Assembly (NCBI RefSeq): GCF_024498195.1
Contig: NZ_CP101824.1
Span: 186,001 to 250,000, forward strand
Source: Halovivax cerinus
GTDB lineage: Archaea > Halobacteriota > Halobacteria > Halobacteriales > Natrialbaceae
Direction: 5' to 3'
DNA length: 64,000 nucleotides
Shown here: positions 6,997 to 42,140 of the stretch, in pieces
Position numbering within the stretch: the stretch's first letter is position 1
Layout: each line of letters starts with the position of its first letter
Program-made: the position numbers and the translations under genes
The notes under the pieces: generated by a model
Databases searched by the model: none
The model's input: only the letters and a program-made list of their open reading frames with translations
Told to the model about the DNA's origin: nothing

Positions 6997-9000
6997 TCAC
7001 GCATCGGGGGTCTCAGATCCCTCTACCCCTCGATCGACGTTCGCGACCTCGTTCTCGGTCTCACCGTCCTGCTGGCGACTCGTCTCGCACCCAACCTCCC
7101 GCGGGGACACCCGCCGTATCTCGATCGACACGCGCTCGCCCGGATCGAGCGAGACGTCGCCGAGCGGTTTGAGGAGTCGGTCGTCACCGCCACCGAGAAC
7201 CACCGCCGGAACCGACTCCACCACCCCCGGAGCCGGCTCCGGATCCGGGAGCGATCGCTCGATCGCGTCGAGTCGGTCGAGAACCGCCGCTTCGAACCGC
7301 TCCGGGCGCTCACCCGTCCAGTCGGTCAGGTCGACGTCACTCGGATCGGACGAACCCCCCGAGAACGACGGTCCGTCGGTCGAGGATGACTCGATCACCG
7401 CGTCTCCGTCTACAGGTGCGTCGCGTTCGGCAGCACCTGCGACCCGCAGACGGGTATCCGCGACGGACCCATCGGCGTCGTCGTAGGTGACGACCATCGT
7501 GTCGGAATCGTCGTCGCTCCGGGTCGCCGTTCCCCCGCCGGCCGCCGGTGGAGCGTCGGCGTCCGGCACACCACCCTCCAGTGGGTCAGCATCCGCGGAC
7601 GTCGAGGGCTGACGCCGCTCCGCGTAGGGATTCGTGATCTCGACGCCGAAGCGGTCGCGGAGAGCATCGACATCGATCCCTTCCGACGTCGGATCGACCG
7701 GACCGGGTGCGACAGCGGGGAGAGACGTGTCCTCACACGGCGGGTTCTCCTCGAGTCGCCTTCGGTGCTTGCGGTGTATCGTCCGGACGGCACCGTCGCC
7801 GAGCCACGCCGGTTCGGCCCACGACCCGTCCTCGTAGAGTCTGTGGCGGCCTCGATCGGCGCTCCCCCAGACGAAGCAGTCCTCCAGGTCTCGCTGGTAG
7901 GACTTGAGGGTCCGCAGACCAGCGTGTGAGACGACGACCTGTCTGGGGGCGAGGCGCGCGATGAGTCCGTCGACGGTCTGGCGCGACGGGTGGTTGGAGC
8001 AGTCGAACGACCGCGTCGTACAGCGCTGACCGTCGGTGACGCCGGCGTCGTCCGGTGTGAGTTGCACGAAGAGGGCCGCGGGATCGTCGGCGATGGCGTC
8101 GAAGAGCCTCGCGGCGCTCCCGCGAACCGGATCGGCTGGACCACAGATCGTGATGCCACCGGGCGTCAGGACGTCCGACGGTCGCTCGAACACGGCCCGT
8201 CGGTCGACCGTCGACGGGGCCCAGTCGATGGCGTCACACAGTTTGGCGGTCTGGCCGACGGCCGTGATCGGCACGGGACGGTCGATTCGATCGACGATTG
8301 CCTCCAGCAGGCGGGCGAGGTGAAGGCCTGCGAGCGATCCCGCGGCGGCGACGACGTGCGAACCGCCGTAGGCCCGCTCGAGCACCGTTCGCACGGCATC
8401 CTGGAGCGCCGCTTCGTACCCGTCGTTCGTCGGTGCGTTGAGAATGAGGGTGTCGACGGCGAACGGGAACGCCCCAGGAAACCCTCCGAACCCGGCGCAG
8501 TCCCGGCGGGTGAAGTCGCCCGTGATCACGACGTGGTTGTCGTCGGGGCCGAGCTGGGTGCGATCGTCGGCGAACCGGCAGACGAAGCCGGCCGCACCGG
8601 GGGCGTGACCGGCCGGAACGGGGCGTACGGCCACCTCGGGGAGGACGTCGACCCAGTCGGTGATCGGCGTGAGCGCTTCGATCGCTCGGTCGACCGGGCC
8701 GACGTCGTTGTCCTTCGTCGCCTCGGGAAGCGCTCGTTCGACGAGAGCCGCCGTCGCCGGGGTGGCGTAGACGGGCGCACCGTGGACGACGTTCCGTGCG
8801 AGAGATCGGTAATGGTCGATGTGCGCGTGCGTCAACAAGATCGCCGTGAGGTACTCGTCGTCGTCGAGAACGTCGGTCACGTCGACGTCGTCGCCGGCGT
8901 CGACCAGCACACAGGCGCGCCTCCCGTCGCGCGTCGTAAAGCGAAGCAATGTCGATTCGTTCCCCCGACCAACGTTAGTATGTTGAAAGGAGACGTCCAT
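6997..9000 (-). CDS. MBL-fold metallohydrolase with long C-terminal extension
   Basis: A 667-aa protein. Residues 1-380 form a metallo-beta-lactamase domain: ILLTHAHIDHYRSL (HxHxDH), PAGHAPGAAGF, VITGDFTRR and a later VVSHAGLRTL strand resembling the beta-CASP class of nucleases. From about 440 the sequence is a disordered acidic linker, followed by a small C-terminal domain (DWTGERPERFEAAVLDRLDAIE and VSIEIRRVSPREV). No RNA-binding KH domain was seen, so the substrate is unclear. The upstream TATA-like box at 9025-9032 fits the ATG at 9000. Confidence 0.8.
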   Translation of the reverse strand: MDVSFQHTNVGRGNESTLLRFTTRDGRRACVLVDAGDDVDVTDVLDDDEYLTAILLTHAHIDHYRSLARNVVHGAPVYATPATAALVERALPEATKDNDVGPVDRAIEALTPITDWVDVLPEVAVRPVPAGHAPGAAGFVCRFADDRTQLGPDDNHVVITGDFTRRDCAGFGGFPGAFPFAVDTLILNAPTNDGYEAALQDAVRTVLERAYGGSHVVAAAGSLAGLHLARLLEAIVDRIDRPVPITAVGQTAKLCDAIDWAPSTVDRRAVFERPSDVLTPGGITICGPADPVRGSAARLFDAIADDPAALFVQLTPDDAGVTDGQRCTTRSFDCSNHPSRQTVDGLIARLAPRQVVVSHAGLRTLKSYQRDLEDCFVWGSADRGRHRLYEDGSWAEPAWLGDGAVRTIHRKHRRRLEENPPCEDTSLPAVAPGPVDPTSEGIDVDALRDRFGVEITNPYAERRQPSTSADADPLEGGVPDADAPPAAGGGTATRSDDDSDTMVVTYDDADGSVADTRLRVAGAAERDAPVDGDAVIESSSTDGPSFSGGSSDPSDVDLTDWTGERPERFEAAVLDRLDAIERSLPDPEPAPGVVESVPAVVLGGGDDRLLKPLGDVSLDPGERVSIEIRRVSPREVGCETSRQQDGETENEVANVDRGVEGSETPDA

Positions 9001-26233: not shown

Positions 26234-26326
26234 AGTATTATTGTATACTAAAATGAAATTATCGGCGATGAGCTATTGGCTCCGCTGCGAATCCCGACGT
26301 CGACGGTCCCCGGAGGGGAGTCGTCG
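26234..26326 (+). promoter_or_regulatory. Conserved leader of the eCIS-core genes, copy 1
   Basis: Aligns without gaps to 30394-30486 upstream of the second eCIS-core gene. The last 36 bases before the ATG are almost identical (ATCCCG, CGACGGTCCCCGGAGGGGAG, TCGTCG) and include a strong GGAGGGGAG ribosome binding site. The distal part shares ATTATTGT and AAAATxxAATT blocks that probably hold the promoter. So the module was duplicated with its control region. Confidence 0.6.
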
Positions 26327-27520
26327 ATGACCAGGCGCAAGCGACGCCGCTCACGCAAATCCGCCACGGACGAACGCGAGTCGTCCCGGTCGCGCCGGCG
26401 TGCCCGAACCGAGTCGGCCGACCCGATGGCGCCCGGCCCAATTGGGATACCCGTGCTGCGGTCGACAGAGTCGACGCTGGACGAACCGGTCACGCTCGGG
26501 CCGGCGGCGAGCGAGCGGGCGTCCGAAATCATCGCCGAGTTCCAGAATCGCCCCGACGAAATTCCAAACCACAATTCAAGGCAGGATCTGGCGTCGCACG
26601 AGCGGAACTGGGACGCCCACGAGGCGACTGGCCCAGCGGGCGACGCCGGTGTCCCCGAGAGCGTGCGAGAGGTAATCTCCTCGTCGGGGCAGTCACTCGA
26701 CGCGTCGATCCAGCGCGCGATGGAAGACCGGATGGGCGACGCGTTCGGTGACGTCCGGATTCACACGGGGCCGAAAGCGGCGAACGCCTGTGAGGACATC
26801 AACGCCCGGGCGTTTACGGTCGGGAATCACATCGCGTTCAACGCGGGTGAGTACGATCCGGAGAGTGCAGCGGGCCAGCACCTATTGGCGCACGAGTTGG
26901 CCCACGTGAGACAGCAGACCGGCGGGGTGGTATCAATGCTCTCCCAGGAGGACCTGGAGCTGGAGATCGATCCGGACCCGGAGCAAGAGCGGGAGGCGGA
27001 GGTGACTGCAAAGCGCGTGGTGTCCGGTCGTGAGTTGGGGATTCAGCGGTTAGCGAATACGGAAGTGTATATTCAGCGCTTCCCGTGGGACCAGAGTAAT
27101 CTCAACTCATCCAACGGAGATGGATACGATTCCAGGGCGGACGACGGCCTGGGACACCCCGTCAAGAATCGGTCTGCTCGATTTGGTTCAGCAATGCGTA
27201 CGGACTACCGAAAAACGTTCTTCAAGGCCTATCCCCACTTGGAGGGCGATGTCGTGGTCCATCACGCAGTAGAAAAACGAATGGCTTCGGGCGAAAACAC
27301 CAACTGGCCTGATATCGTCTCACAATCTGAAATACACTCCCTGGAGAATTTACGGGGCATTCCCAAAGAGTTGAACAGTGAAGTCCACTTGAGTGAGATC
27401 AGAAGGGAATGGGACAAATTCTACGACGAAAATCCGAGCCCCAGTAAAGAAGAACTACTGAACAAGGCGACAGAAATTGACGATGCGTACGGTCACGTAT
27501 TCGAACCCCCGGTGAGGTAG
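26327..27520 (+). CDS. eCIS-core (DUF4157) protein with C-terminal nuclease-like toxin
   Basis: A 397-aa protein. A basic N-terminus (MTRRKRRRSRKS) and a proline-rich stretch precede the eCIS-core domain (about 120-205). That domain has SLDASIQRAMEDRMGDAFGD, VRIHTGPKAANAC and HLLAHELAHVRQQ, with the zinc-protease-like HELAH at 189-193. DUF4157 marks cargo of extracellular contractile injection systems. The tail (about 285-397) holds VVHHAVEKR (HH at 312-313), SLENLRGIPKELNSEVHLSE (N341, H354) and EWDKFY. This matches HNH/Endo VII-like toxin tails of bacterial RHS and other polymorphic toxins, so it is probably a DNase or RNase. The tail is less GC-rich than the core. A candidate immunity gene follows after 3 bp. 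Confidence 0.8.
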   Translation: MTRRKRRRSRKSATDERESSRSRRRARTESADPMAPGPIGIPVLRSTESTLDEPVTLGPAASERASEIIAEFQNRPDEIPNHNSRQDLASHERNWDAHEATGPAGDAGVPESVREVISSSGQSLDASIQRAMEDRMGDAFGDVRIHTGPKAANACEDINARAFTVGNHIAFNAGEYDPESAAGQHLLAHELAHVRQQTGGVVSMLSQEDLELEIDPDPEQEREAEVTAKRVVSGRELGIQRLANTEVYIQRFPWDQSNLNSSNGDGYDSRADDGLGHPVKNRSARFGSAMRTDYRKTFFKAYPHLEGDVVVHHAVEKRMASGENTNWPDIVSQSEIHSLENLRGIPKELNSEVHLSEIRREWDKFYDENPSPSKEELLNKATEIDDAYGHVFEPPVR

Positions 27521-27523
27521 AGT

Positions 27524-27958
27524 ATGACCACCTATTACCATATTCATCCAGAGGTTGCCGGTGAACTCGGTGCAGAAACGGAACACGATGGCTCTTCGCT
27601 CCCACCGACCCAAGAGAGCATTCAGAAGCTCCATTACGAATTTAGTGGCTGGCTCGGGGATGAGCTGTTGAAATCCTATTCCTGTTACATCATTACAGAT
27701 AGCGTGAAGAACCATCTTGACGGCAGTGAGTTATCTGGATGGGAGATCAACGACGTCCAGGTGACGACATCGGTACAGTTCCAGGAGTTGCACCCGGACA
27801 GAGACCTCCCCACGTTCCACTGGCTCAAGATCACTGGAGAACCCGGGGAAGACGATTTCGGGATTGCGGAAAACAATCGGCTGGTGATCTCCGAAAGCGC
27901 GCTTTCGGTCCTTCAGGAAGTGACCATCGACAACGCAGAAGTCGATGAATGGGGGTAA
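27524..27958 (+). CDS. Candidate immunity protein for the adjacent toxin
   Basis: A 144-aa acidic soluble protein starting 3 bp after the toxin stop, so translationally coupled. It contains ELSGWEINDVQVTTSVQFQE, PTFHWLKITGEPGEDDFGIA and NRLVISESALSVLQEVTIDN. The last part (xLVISExALxxL) resembles the Imm11/Imm43-type immunity families from memory. Position, size and AT-richer composition equal to the toxin tail all fit an immunity role; no direct functional motif exists. Confidence 0.6.
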   Translation: MTTYYHIHPEVAGELGAETEHDGSSLPPTQESIQKLHYEFSGWLGDELLKSYSCYIITDSVKNHLDGSELSGWEINDVQVTTSVQFQELHPDRDLPTFHWLKITGEPGEDDFGIAENNRLVISESALSVLQEVTIDNAEVDEWG

Positions 27959-27960
27959 CG

Positions 27961-28080
27961 CTCGATCCGCCGAGCCAGCGCGCGATCGATGCTCGCATGG
28001 GCGACTCGGTCGGCGACGTGCGGATCCATAGGGGGCCGAGGGCGGCGAACGCCTGTGAGGAGATCAACGCGCGTACCTCG
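27961..28080 (+). pseudogene. eCIS-core fragment
   Basis: Translates as PPSQRAIDARMGDSVGDVRI and then HRGPRAANACEEINAR, which aligns to residues 127-161 of the gene at 26327 (QRAMEDRMGDAFGDVRIHTG). It has no start and runs out of homology at 28080. It is a broken copy left between two immunity genes. Confidence 0.75.
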
Positions 28081-28106
28081 TCACATCGACTGGAGACCTA
28101 TACCAT

Positions 28107-28403
28107 ATGAGTGAGACTGAGCTAACTCGAACGTATCTCGAATTGATTCGGAAATTCACCGGCGGCGAGATGACTGCGCCGGAATTCGAGAGGCAGTATC
28201 TCGACGAATTCAAATCAGATCGGGGTAACTTTCCGAGTGGAGATGCGTTCGACCCGTATCATCGACTGTTCGTCGCGGTCGACGCCTATTGTTCGGATCC
28301 GGAGCTGCGAGACGAGTACGACATCGACGAAACAGCACTTCGGGAAACGGCTGTCGAGACGAAAGCGCAACTGGAACACCGGCTAGAAACGATTACGGGT
28401 TGA
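28107..28403 (+). CDS. Orphan colicin-type immunity protein
   Basis: A 98-aa, mostly helical acidic protein: YLELIRKFTGGEMTAPEFER, QYLDEFKSDRGNFPSGDAFD, RLFVAVDAYCSDPELRDEYD. The order helix, E-F-E-R-x-Y-L, L-F-x-x-V-D-A-Y-C-x-D-P-E-L-R is that of the bacterial self-protective colicin-like immunity family (Colicin_immun). That family blocks tRNase-type colicins. No matching toxin is next to it: the sequence on both sides is broken eCIS-core. It is probably kept to resist toxins of relatives. Confidence 0.7.
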   Translation: MSETELTRTYLELIRKFTGGEMTAPEFERQYLDEFKSDRGNFPSGDAFDPYHRLFVAVDAYCSDPELRDEYDIDETALRETAVETKAQLEHRLETITG

Positions 28404-28482
28404 AGCGGAAGACCCCATTGGCCTCATACTATTGGTAGACAGACGACCGTGCTTGTACTTTCGCAGGAAAGAAACTGACTTT

Positions 28483-28605
28483 GAGATCGATCCCAATCCA
28501 CAACTGGACGGCGAGGCCGGAGAGACCGCCCGGCGGGTGATGGAGGGCGGCGAGCTGGGATCGAAAACCGCCTCAGTCTTCGAGGACAGTAGCACGCGGA
28601 CCTGA
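28483..28605 (+). pseudogene. eCIS-core downstream fragment
   Basis: Reads EIDPNPQLDGEAGETARRVM then EGGELG, matching residues EIDPDPQLEREAEATAQRVM and EGGELG in the intact gene at 30487. The frame ends in unrelated residues at 28605. Together with the fragment at 27961 it brackets the orphan immunity gene. Confidence 0.75.
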
Positions 28606-28673: not shown

Positions 28674-29156
28674 TCACTCGCAGAGACAATCTCGCGTTCG
28701 GGTCGATCCAACGATTTCGTCGTGAAGTTGCGCCGCGAGTCGCCGAACCGTCCGGGCTCGGTACTCGCCAGCGACGCCGGTCCGGTAATAAGATTCAGAC
28801 CGATTTTCGATCCAGAGTTCCTCCAGGCGGTCGGCGATATCTCGCGAGAAGAGGCCAGCCCTGACTCCCAGATCATATACCTCGGTGTGGCGCTGACCGG
28901 CGACATCGTATCCCTTCTCCTCGACGTAGAACTGAATCGAGCGTTCGATCGCGACGAAGGACGTCTCGATGATGACCGTGTAGTGGCCATTTCGATCGAG
29001 CAGAAATTCGGCGGCATCTAGAAGCCGACACGCCTTCCGCAGTTGGAGGATGGCCGGGTCGGAGACGTGTTCGAGCCCGACCTCCGGGTTCTCGGGTTTC
29101 CGCAGAAATGCGTCCTCCGCGTCCGTGAGCGCCGACTCGAGTTTCTTCGAGGTCAT
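28674..29156 (-). CDS. HEPN-domain protein of a HEPN/MNT pair
   Basis: A 160-aa helical protein: ILQLRKACRLLDAAEFLLDR, TVIIETSFVAIERSIQFYVE and RARTVRRLAAQLHDEIVG. The RRLAAQLH segment fits an R-x(4-6)-H HEPN RNase motif. Its ATG overlaps the stop of the upstream nucleotidyltransferase gene, the normal HEPN/MNT layout. In such pairs the HEPN protein is the toxin and the MNT protein silences it by AMP transfer or binding. Confidence 0.75.
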   Translation of the reverse strand: MTSKKLESALTDAEDAFLRKPENPEVGLEHVSDPAILQLRKACRLLDAAEFLLDRNGHYTVIIETSFVAIERSIQFYVEEKGYDVAGQRHTEVYDLGVRAGLFSRDIADRLEELWIENRSESYYRTGVAGEYRARTVRRLAAQLHDEIVGSTRTRDCLCE

Positions 29157-29809
29157 TCCGCGACCCCGAAGACGGTCCGGCGCACGCTTCGTAGCGTCTC
29201 GCTCTCGACCAGGGCGATCCCCTCCTGGAGTATCGGTCGGAGGGCCTCGCCCCGCTTACGAGCGGTTTCGGGCGACTCGACGAAGACCTCGAACTCGTAC
29301 CGATCGCCGTCGATCGACTCCTCCTCGAGTGCGCTGGTTACGTCCGAAATCGTTCGCCGCACGGGGACCGGGTCCTCGCCGTCGCCTACGAGAACGAAGA
29401 CGTCGATGTCGCTCGCTCGATCGGCTTCGCCACGCGCTACGCTGCCGAAGCAGAGGATTCCGGCGATAGAGTGGACGTCGGCGGTCACTCGCTCCACAAA
29501 CCGTTTCAACGGCTCGCGAAACTCCGCCTGCGGAATTTGGAGAAGCGGGTCGACAGCATCGTGAATACGGTGTTCGTCGATTCGATAGAGCGTTCGGTTT
29601 CCGGTGTCCGTCCCGACGATCAGTCCCATCGCCTCGAGCAGCGAGAGTGCCTTCGAGACGCTCGGGCCGCCGTAGCCGGTCAGCCGCTGGAGTTCGCGAT
29701 TCGAGAACGACGCCGACGGGTTCCGGACGAGTATCTCGACGATCTCGTCCATCGCCCCGTATCGGAAAACCTGTTCGTCCGGGAGCGGGAGTCGGAGTGA
29801 GACGTCCAT
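29153..29809 (-). CDS. HTH-nucleotidyltransferase (MNT) antitoxin
   Basis: A 218-aa protein. Residues 1-90 are a winged helix (FSNRELQRLTGYGGPSVSKA LSLLEAMGLI, in two parts). Residues 110-218 form a minimal nucleotidyltransferase with CFGSVARGEADRASDIDVFV, the GSxxxGxxxxxSDxD motif with both catalytic Asp present. A fused HTH suggests it also controls its own operon. It is followed by the HEPN gene with a 4-bp overlap. Confidence 0.85.
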   Translation of the reverse strand: MDVSLRLPLPDEQVFRYGAMDEIVEILVRNPSASFSNRELQRLTGYGGPSVSKALSLLEAMGLIVGTDTGNRTLYRIDEHRIHDAVDPLLQIPQAEFREPLKRFVERVTADVHSIAGILCFGSVARGEADRASDIDVFVLVGDGEDPVPVRRTISDVTSALEEESIDGDRYEFEVFVESPETARKRGEALRPILQEGIALVESETLRSVRRTVFGVAE

Positions 29810-30080: not shown

Positions 30081-30210
30081 GTTCAATTCTCCAGCGTAGA
30101 GATCGATAGTGGTCACTGTACAACGCACTGACTGGTGGACGCATCCGTCTCCAGAAGACCAGGGGACAGGGAGTGAAATGTCCCGAGTGGTGGAGTATCC
30201 AAAACGACCA
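30081..30210. repeat. Dispersed hairpin repeat, copy 1
   Basis: About 75-80% identical to 42007-42140. The best-kept part is GTCACTGTACAACGCACTGA and the hairpin CTCCA (30149-30153) ... GGGACA (30163-30168) / TGTCCC (30179-30184) ... TGGAG (30191-30195). It lies some 280 bp upstream of the second eCIS-core gene. Confidence 0.65.
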
Positions 30211-30486: not shown

Positions 30487-31554
30487 ATGACCAGGCGCAA
30501 GCAACGCCGCTCACGCCGATCGTCTGAGGACAAACGTGAGTCGACCGACTCGTCCCGATCCCGGCGGAGTGCTCGAACCGAGTCGGCTGACCCGATGGCG
30601 CCCGGCCCTCTTGGGGTACCCGTGCTGCGGTCGACGGAGACGAGGCTCGACGAACCGGTCTCGCTCGGTCCGGCGGCGAGCGAGCGTGCGTCCGAAATCA
30701 TCGACGAGTTCCAGAATCGACCCGACGAGATCCCGGACGACAACAATCGGCAGAACCTGGCGTCGCTACAGCGCAATATGGACGCCCATGAGGCCACGGG
30801 GCCGGCGGGCGACGCCAGTGTCCCCGACAGCGTGCGCGAGGTCATCTCCTCGTCCGGCCAGTCGCTCGACGCGTCGATCCAGCGCGCTGTCGAAGAGCGG
30901 ATGGGCGACTCGTTCGGCGACGTCCGGATTCACACCGGGCCGAACGCGGCGAACGCCTGCGAGGCCATCAACGCGCGGGCGTTCACCGTCGGGAACCACA
31001 TCGCGTTCAATTCGGGTGAGTACGACCCCGAGAGTCCGGAAGGGCAGCACCTATTGGCGCACGAATTGGCCCACGTGAGACAGCAGACCGGCGGCGCACT
31101 CTCGATGATGCCTCAGGCGAACGTCGAGCTTGAGATAGATCCTGATCCACAACTGGAGCGTGAAGCCGAGGCAACCGCCCAGCGGGTGATGGAGGGTGGG
31201 GAACTGGGGATTCAGCGGCTGGCGAAGTCGGAAGTCCACGTCCAGCGGGCTCCCGAGGCGAGTCGGCGCGACGTCCTCACCGGGAACGTCGACCTCGACG
31301 ACCTCGGCGAGGCGGTCGAGAACGTCGACACCGGGGACGTGGATTACGGCGAGGTCGCAGCCGCCGGGGCGCTGAGTCTCGTCCCCGTCCTGGGCCCCGC
31401 GATGAAGAGCTACGTCGATCAGAAAACTGCACCACTGAAACTGAAACAGACGCTGCAGCAGGTCGATCCGCCGACCGAGTGGGTCGAACAGGCCGCCACG
31501 CGTGCAGCCTCGATGGTCGAGAATCTGGTGACTGGACCGACTCGGTTTGGCTGA
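30487..31554 (+). CDS. eCIS-core (DUF4157) protein, second paralogue
   Basis: A 355-aa protein, collinear with the first 245 residues of the gene at 26327 (same MTRRKxRRSR start, RMGDSFGDVRIHTGPNAANA, LLAHELAHVRQQ with HELAH). The tail from about residue 260 differs: LDDLGEAVENVDTGDVDYGE, then a hydrophobic helix (VAAAGALSLVPVLGPAMKSY) and an amphipathic end. I see no nuclease or other toxin motif, so the tail may be a short effector, a membrane-active helix or a pretoxin stub. The frame is intact. The next gene starts 5 bp later. Confidence 0.8.
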   Translation: MTRRKQRRSRRSSEDKRESTDSSRSRRSARTESADPMAPGPLGVPVLRSTETRLDEPVSLGPAASERASEIIDEFQNRPDEIPDDNNRQNLASLQRNMDAHEATGPAGDASVPDSVREVISSSGQSLDASIQRAVEERMGDSFGDVRIHTGPNAANACEAINARAFTVGNHIAFNSGEYDPESPEGQHLLAHELAHVRQQTGGALSMMPQANVELEIDPDPQLEREAEATAQRVMEGGELGIQRLAKSEVHVQRAPEASRRDVLTGNVDLDDLGEAVENVDTGDVDYGEVAAAGALSLVPVLGPAMKSYVDQKTAPLKLKQTLQQVDPPTEWVEQAATRAASMVENLVTGPTRFG

Positions 31555-31559
31555 AACAC

Positions 31560-32597
31560 ATGTTCGCAGAGATCATCGACAAGGATGAGCGGGGTATTGG
31601 TGTCCGTGTAGTTGACAACAACGACGTCGAACACACCGTGGCAGTTGGGTTTGATGGCGAAGTGCAAGGTCATTCACAGGACGGCTATCCCGACGATCCG
31701 GCGAAGCGATCGATGATAGACGAGGTCGAGCCGATCAACCAGGCCCGGCGGTTCGCGAAGTACTGGGTCCACGCGAAACGCGGCTACGACACGCTCTCGC
31801 TCAACGAAGATCCCGCCCGGATCGCCGCGACGGCGCTCGTCGTCGCCGGCCTCGACGAGGAGGCGTTCGAGGAGCACTTCGTCGACCTCTACGTCCAGCT
31901 CGTCAGCCATGGCGAGGACACCGCCCGACCCCCCGCGGTGATACGGCCCGTGTCACTGCCCGAGGGTGCGATGGATACCAACGTGACCTACCGCACGGAC
32001 GTCTACCTGGGGATCGACGACGACGCGTTGGCCGCACTCGCCGCGGCGGTCACCGACCCCAACGCCGTGGCATTCCTGATGGACGTCCGTTCGGGTGATG
32101 TCCCCGCGGACCGATCGATCGCGTCCGTCCTGGGCGGTCTCGCAGAACGGAGTGACGCGCTCGACGAATCGCTGCTCGACCGTCCCGCCGATTCCTGGAT
32201 CGAAGCCGTCTCCGGGATCCACGTCCACTGGGACGACGCGACCGGCCAGTACCACACCGAGTGGGGCGAGCAACCGGCGATCGATCGCGATCCCGACGCC
32301 CGGATCGACGTCATGCCCTACGACGTCGGGACGCTCGAGACGTTCCATGCCCAGCTCGTCCGCGTGCTCTGCTGCCAGGTGCGCGACGTCTTCCTCGGCA
32401 TGGGGATCGCCCCGCCTGACGCCTTTCGACTACAGGGCCACGGCATTCACGAGTACACCACCTGGTACGAACACTACGACTTCTACGAACGCTACCACGA
32501 CCCCGACGCGACGATCGACACCTGGTACGAAGACCGGACGCCCGACGACGCCTACGAACGGGTCGGACCTGTCGGCGTGGACGGCGTCAGCCCCTGA
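31560..32597 (+). CDS. Unknown protein coupled to the second eCIS-core gene
   Basis: A 345-aa protein from ATG 31560, 5 bp after the eCIS-core stop. It begins MFAEIIDKDERGIGVRVVDN with a beta-rich part, then helices (NQARRFAKYWVHAKRGYDTL), and repeatedly shows aromatic/acidic patches near the end (HEYTTWYEHYDFYERYHDPD). There is no signal peptide or TM segment. Sequence is strongly acidic and GC-rich, unlike the AT-richer toxin tail upstream. Position suggests an immunity protein or co-delivered cargo, but size is large for immunity and no family is recognised. Confidence 0.65.
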   Translation: MFAEIIDKDERGIGVRVVDNNDVEHTVAVGFDGEVQGHSQDGYPDDPAKRSMIDEVEPINQARRFAKYWVHAKRGYDTLSLNEDPARIAATALVVAGLDEEAFEEHFVDLYVQLVSHGEDTARPPAVIRPVSLPEGAMDTNVTYRTDVYLGIDDDALAALAAAVTDPNAVAFLMDVRSGDVPADRSIASVLGGLAERSDALDESLLDRPADSWIEAVSGIHVHWDDATGQYHTEWGEQPAIDRDPDARIDVMPYDVGTLETFHAQLVRVLCCQVRDVFLGMGIAPPDAFRLQGHGIHEYTTWYEHYDFYERYHDPDATIDTWYEDRTPDDAYERVGPVGVDGVSP

Positions 32598-42006: not shown

Positions 42007-42140
42007 CGTTCAATTCGCTTGAGTAGAGATAGATATAAGTCACTGTACAACGCACTGACTGGTGGAAGCACTCGTCTCCAGAAGACCGGGGGCAGGTAGT
42101 GAAATGCCCCGGGTGGTGGAGCACCCGAGACGATTGCTTC
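42007..42140. repeat. Dispersed hairpin repeat, copy 2
   Basis: Matches 30081-30210. The hairpin is CTCCA (42076-42080) ... GGGGCA (42089-42094) / TGCCCC (42105-42110) ... TGGAG (42117-42121). Compared with copy 1 one base pair has changed from A-T to G-C with pairing kept. It ends 25 bp before the next gene. Confidence 0.65.

Follow-up and report, generated by a model that had tools for sequence, protein, structure and literature searches.

An orphan ImmD-type immunity gene in Halovivax cerinus and the intact eCIS_core–Colicin_D cassette at the same site in Halovivax asiaticus

Introduction

Immunity genes that have outlived their toxins are best described in bacteria. For orphan cdiA-CT/cdiI and rhs-CT/rhsI modules, it has been shown that they are co-transcribed with the genes before them and that the orphan immunity protein is made (PMC3150448), and the T6SS immunity arrays of Vibrio cholerae are thought to arise by sequential displacement of effectors (PMC5361080). 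In a haloarchaeon, Halogeometricum borinquense, a T6SS secretes DUF4157 toxins whose toxicity is relieved by downstream partners (PMC11566945).

Here we describe a locus in the haloarchaeon Halovivax cerinus at which an immunity gene of colicin D type stands without its toxin among genes and gene fragments of the eCIS_core (DUF4157) family. The window analyzed is a 64,000-nucleotide stretch of the chromosome (NZ_CP101824.1, positions 186,001–250,000), and coordinates refer to it unless another locus is named. The locus had been singled out by an original prediction made from the letters of the DNA, whose claims are taken up where the relevant results are given.

Results

An intact ImmD-type gene without its toxin

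The gene in question (28107–28403, + strand) is an intact reading frame encoding 98 residues. Its product scores 46.2 bits (E = 6.8e-12) against the Colicin_immun family, PF09204, for which the curated cut-off is 22 bits, and this is its sole Pfam match; the predicted identity as an intact gene of colicin-immunity type is thereby borne out in the very search that had been proposed to check it. An NCBIfam scan of the protein returned nothing but a spurious weak match to the bacilliredoxin AbxC, at 19 bits where the cut-off is 340. The structure predicted by AlphaFold has four helices and high confidence (pLDDT 94); VIA-align superimposes it on E. coli ImmD (1v74_B) over 86 residues at 2.4 Å with a Z-score of 11.7 and TM values of 0.72–0.79, and on 1tfk_B with a Z-score of 11.4, compared to 8.0 for the next best entry that is not ImmD, bearing in mind that helical bundles can reach high Z-scores by chance. 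With Foldseek, E-values below 0.001 were obtained for ImmD chains only, and in a profile search ImmD again ranks first, albeit weakly (E = 0.035–0.043). Profile search, Pfam and fold thus agree on the same ImmD chains, and the 98-aa protein is of the ImmD type. Family membership rests on the profile score and the fold; a neighboring Colicin_D gene, present beside the 92% identical H. asiaticus orthologue, is represented here only by a remnant of its 3′ end, and its absence bears on the word “orphan” rather than on the family assignment.

Core fragments, a toxin remnant and two intact cassettes

The orphan is flanked on the same strand by two pieces of eCIS_core sequence, for which we use the residue numbering of the intact 355-aa core at 30487. 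Fragment 1 (27952–28074) corresponds to core residues ~126–164, matches PF13699 over profile positions 2–40 with 28.3 bits (cut-off 22), and, over 41 residues, shares 66–73% identity with most of the genome’s intact cores and 49% with that of locus L016 (tblastn E down to 1e-13). Fragment 2 (28474–28575) corresponds to residues ~213–241 and is 59–72% identical over 29–34 residues to most intact cores, with 72% reached by the piece 28474–28560, and 50% identical to that of L016 (tblastn E down to 5e-8); by blastn it is 73–87% identical to the paralogous cores. These alignments confirm the homology of both pieces to eCIS_core and agree closely with the predicted extents (residues 127–161 and about 213–238), and the predicted starting position of 27961 was nearly exact, since the homology of fragment 1 begins at about 27952–27961. 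The HELAH metal motif (residues 192–196) belongs to the stretch of core that has been lost, and neither fragment contains it.

Directly upstream of the orphan’s ATG lies a short remnant of the lost Colicin_D toxin gene, consisting of its 3′ end plus spacer (28079–28106, +), in which 27 of 28 bases are identical to positions 7768–7795 of the H. asiaticus locus L038; tblastn reads the last toxin residues out of frame with core fragment 1. Fragment 1 and the out-of-frame remnant together form a short ORF of 52 aa plus stop (27949–28107, +), the start of which overlaps the stop codon of the preceding gene, imm1, and the stop of which overlaps the start codon (ATG) of the orphan. The earlier description of the locus was correct as to the gene and the fragments, but it overlooked the toxin remnant, the missing HELAH motif and the overlapping short ORF.

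The effector of cassette 1 (core1; 26276–27520, +) is intact, with an eCIS_core domain (PF13699, E = 9e-33), the HELAH motif, and a C-terminal tail that has no Pfam match and that we label HNH-like from a His/Asn motif judged by eye. It is 69% identical over 371 residues, core plus tail, to a paralogue with the same tail in locus L018. Its probable cognate immunity gene, imm1 (27524–27958, +), encodes 144 aa without a Pfam match and is 48% identical to the gene that follows the same effector in L018; its C-terminus is about 5 residues shorter than that of its paralogue and its stop codon lies at the junction with fragment 1. Cassette 3, on the other side of the orphan, also has an intact effector (core3; 30487–31554, +; PF13699, E = 1.9e-32), with a different tail, followed by a probable immunity partner (31479–32597, +) that aligns at 32–40% identity with paralogues found after other eCIS_core effectors, including those of the sister species G002. 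The genes at 26276 and 30487 and their paralogues combine a DUF4157 core bearing HExxH with a variable C-terminal tail and a downstream partner. The ~300–370 aa probable immunity family to which the partner of core3 belongs follows eCIS_core effectors at several Halovivax loci (31479–32597, L019, L021 and L051), and the two members scanned had no Pfam match. Between core fragment 2 and cassette 3, the opposite strand (28674–29809, −) carries what looks like an MNT/HEPN-type toxin-antitoxin pair: one gene is of unknown family, and the other encodes an HTH-nucleotidyltransferase (NTP_transf_2, 1.3e-8).

The missing toxin is found at the same site in H. asiaticus

In a search of 295 related genomes, a protein 92% identical to the 98-aa one was found in H. 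asiaticus JCM 14624, where the same chromosomal site holds one intact effector–immunity cassette: a gene with both eCIS_core (8e-32) and Colicin_D (7e-18) domains (L038, 6656–7792), with the immunity gene beginning 3 nt later. The two sites are syntenic, at 88% identity over 2.5 kb to the left and 83% over 3.2 kb to the right, and window positions 28079–28500, the toxin 3′ end included, are 91% identical to H. asiaticus. In sequence, the tail of the H. asiaticus toxin is a relative of colicin D of solved structure (1tfk, E = 4.7e-17), and the alignment includes K-x-K-H, D and S-x-W, which we take to be the colicin D active-site residues; as judged by this similarity, the tail lost from the H. 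cerinus locus is a colicin-D-type tRNase. The window itself contains no Colicin_D domain beyond the 3′ remnant. That this toxin 3′ end immediately precedes the immunity ATG and matches H. asiaticus implies that the window lineage once had the toxin here and then lost it. The lost toxin tail that the original prediction had suggested seeking in relatives has therefore been located, and its syntenic, intact cassette supports the view that a displaced polymorphic-toxin cassette left its immunity gene behind. The locus shows the features of an orphan module: an intact immunity gene without its cognate toxin, beside a truncated effector backbone and downstream of an intact pair, with the cognate toxin present in a relative, here syntenically.

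H. asiaticus, too, has the first part of fragment 2 after its immunity gene (aligning to L038 8157–8191), which implies that this fragment predates the loss of the toxin and was left by a further cassette. Being older and independent, it does not make the immunity gene one trapped between two halves of a single core. In G002 the same site holds a different cassette, and these differing contents across species mark it as a slot where effector–immunity cassettes come and go. Nearby, a flank that is single in both H. asiaticus and G002 is present twice, as an 86% identical direct repeat (30081–30165 and 42008–42092), and a further repetition, spaced at 4.16 kb, involves the cores at 26276 and 30487; it seems that the effector slot was duplicated or that a segment of ~11.9 kb was inserted.

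The mapped junctions do not join core to core

Two junctions could be mapped, in the numbering of the 414-aa core1: the first joins the imm1 stop to core residue ~138, and the second joins core residue ~178 to the last ~9 toxin codons. Neither is core-to-core, and no crossover between a resident and an incoming core was visible in the sliding identity of core1 compared to the H. asiaticus core and the paralogues; the 5′ part of core1 is mostly 0.8–0.9 identical to the window’s own core3 and to L019, compared to 0.63–0.75 to the H. asiaticus core at the site. Recombination through the shared core sequence, as the original prediction had it, is thus not borne out, and we rejected it as a demonstrated mechanism. 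We likewise rejected fragment 1 as a clear descendant of an H. asiaticus-type core, to which it is 78% identical, compared to 81–83% for several of H. cerinus’s own cores.

eCIS_core and Colicin_immun genes elsewhere

The H. cerinus genome contains 18 stretches of eCIS_core, 11 full-length and 7 partial. Most intact cores share a common N-terminal part, differ in their tails and are usually followed by a smaller acidic gene, which is the layout of polymorphic toxins. A contractile apparatus is encoded at 1.21 Mb, with CIS_tube (9e-35), gp25 (1e-28), a hub and two baseplate J genes. One of the paralogous loci is a second array (L018, 2799–6797), which opens with the intact core–HNH-like effector and its immunity gene, continues with a core fragment joined to a 383-aa frame, which is intact and has an HExxH-like tail, and its partner, and ends with a core piece lacking a toxin tail. 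Another (L020, 7592–10645) encodes a 1017-aa protein in which a LysM domain and a region of uncharacterised sequence lie between two full eCIS_core domains.

Across the 295 related genomes, all six Colicin_D genes have a PF09204 gene directly downstream, and four of the ten PF09204 genes are orphans: the 98-aa gene, one at 3.249 Mb in H. cerinus, one on contig 8 of H. asiaticus, and one in genome G025. We found no convincing tblastn match to a toxin remnant beside the other orphans (L017, L039 and L040). The third Colicin_immun gene of H. cerinus (L017 3160–3471; chromosomal 3249168–3249470, −) is solitary: it is flanked by a chemotaxis-like cluster and an ATPase gene, and its surroundings contain neither eCIS_core nor a toxin.

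The orphan of H. asiaticus (L039, 3538–3828) is 91% identical to the immunity gene of an intact eCIS_core-Colicin_D pair found in H. cerinus at 1.086–1.087 Mb (L016, 2697–4178), and the two loci have the same effector leader and the same local order. In H. asiaticus, the orphan stands behind a different effector with that same leader and three paralogues of a 112-aa type, and a SUKH gene comes next. Given these two reciprocal loci, each species has one Colicin_D cassette plus an immunity gene for the other’s.

Discussion

We think it probable that the 98-aa gene is what survives, as the immunity half, of an eCIS_core–Colicin_D cassette, and that it protects its host against a tRNase injected by relatives. 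In this scenario, the site would originally have held such a cassette with its Colicin_immun gene, as it still does in H. asiaticus, and cassette 1, with its HNH-like effector and imm1, would have come to lie upstream in the window lineage. The old effector would have been lost through a deletion that began inside the core and stopped short of the last ~9 codons, fusing fragment 1 out of frame to the toxin 3′ end, and the immunity gene would have been kept intact, to be read onward from where the new cassette ends by way of overlapping stop and start codons. Those overlaps, at both ends of the 27949–28107 ORF, would allow coupled translation, and we infer that the gene is transcribed and translated with cassette 1. 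Its product would bind to a colicin-D-type tRNase and inhibit it, as ImmD does by covering the colicin D active site, and the cell would be protected when an effector-bearing relative injects through the archaeal contractile injection system, which by analogy may deliver these particular effectors. Continued protection against the relative appears likely.

The same history could instead have left a neutral relic, unexpressed or no longer protective and awaiting decay, which we regard as unlikely. The neighboring core fragments and toxin have indeed decayed, and five amino-acid differences allow the direction of change to be assigned, four of which map to the window branch, with E16K and E77A each losing an acidic residue; these changes would fit relaxed constraint, although the numbers are too small to tell. 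Nevertheless, the reading frame is intact, as are those of the three other orphans of the family, and its coding part is 94% identical to H. asiaticus (278 of 297 bases), compared to about 81% for the ~100 bp that follow it. Between the two species, 8 of 17 changes are nonsynonymous when 13 would be expected from the numbers of sites (binomial P = 0.006), giving a dN/dS of 0.24 that spans the whole split and is not assignable to the time after toxin loss.

The remaining alternatives fare far worse against the sequence context. Acquisition of the immunity gene alone as a ready orphan, with no toxin ever at the site, has precedents in traceless orphans such as the one at 3249168–3249470; it is largely refuted by the toxin 3′ end that is still attached and by synteny with the intact H. 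asiaticus cassette, including the 3′ flank and the start of fragment 2, and we consider it very improbable. That the protein might be a second immunity factor for the effector of cassette 1, or have another function, is suggested by its position directly downstream with overlapping reading frames, yet that effector has its own partner in imm1, conserved in L018, where no PF09204 gene follows, and family and fold both point to colicin D immunity, leaving this idea with scarcely any credibility. Finally, 18 eCIS_core stretches could confuse an assembler into joining paralogous cores, but the junctions lie outside shared core sequence, partial cores of a similar kind are found at several further loci as well as in G002, and the chromosome is a single contig of a 99.9% complete assembly, so an artefact is exceedingly improbable.

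Returning to the surviving immunity half of a displaced cassette, its reciprocal counterpart in H. asiaticus raises the possibility, which we put forward tentatively, that the sister species maintain mirror-image armouries, in which each one’s orphan would guard against the other’s tRNase as an acquired archaeal defence against contractile injection, as in bacteria. The comparison of one site across three species, together with the mirror-image locus, provides a direct test of orphan immunity protection in haloarchaea.

The closest parallels are bacterial. In the orphan CDI and Rhs modules, as here, an immunity gene is found downstream of an intact pair and after a truncated piece of the shared backbone (PMC3150448); in H. 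cerinus, however, all but the last ~9 codons of the toxin domain have been lost, the backbone is eCIS_core rather than CdiA or Rhs, and the host is an archaeon. In the V. cholerae arrays, a new pair likewise takes over and the old effector is lost while the old immunity gene is kept, remaining highly similar to that of effector-bearing strains (PMC5361080), whereas the present case involves a haloarchaeal contractile system, a site away from the structural cluster, and a comparison between species rather than strains. The DUF4157 pairs of H. borinquense likewise consist of an eCIS_core/DUF4157 effector with an immunity gene after it, in a haloarchaeal host that has a contractile system, and the main text of that study mentions neither a colicin-like tail nor an orphan immunity gene (PMC11566945). 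Within the literature that we searched, outside of which most subscription papers fall, we found no earlier report of orphan immunity or effector displacement in archaeal contractile systems. Colicin D and ImmD (1v74, 1tfk) provide the toxin family (PF11429), the immunity family (PF09204) and the predicted immunity fold, but here the toxin is the tail of an eCIS_core protein, not of a colicin with receptor and translocation functions, and the copy in the window has lost it. Bacterial CDI, Rhs and T6SS loci offer well-known examples of effectors displaced while their immunity genes are retained, and the H. cerinus locus adds an archaeal case.
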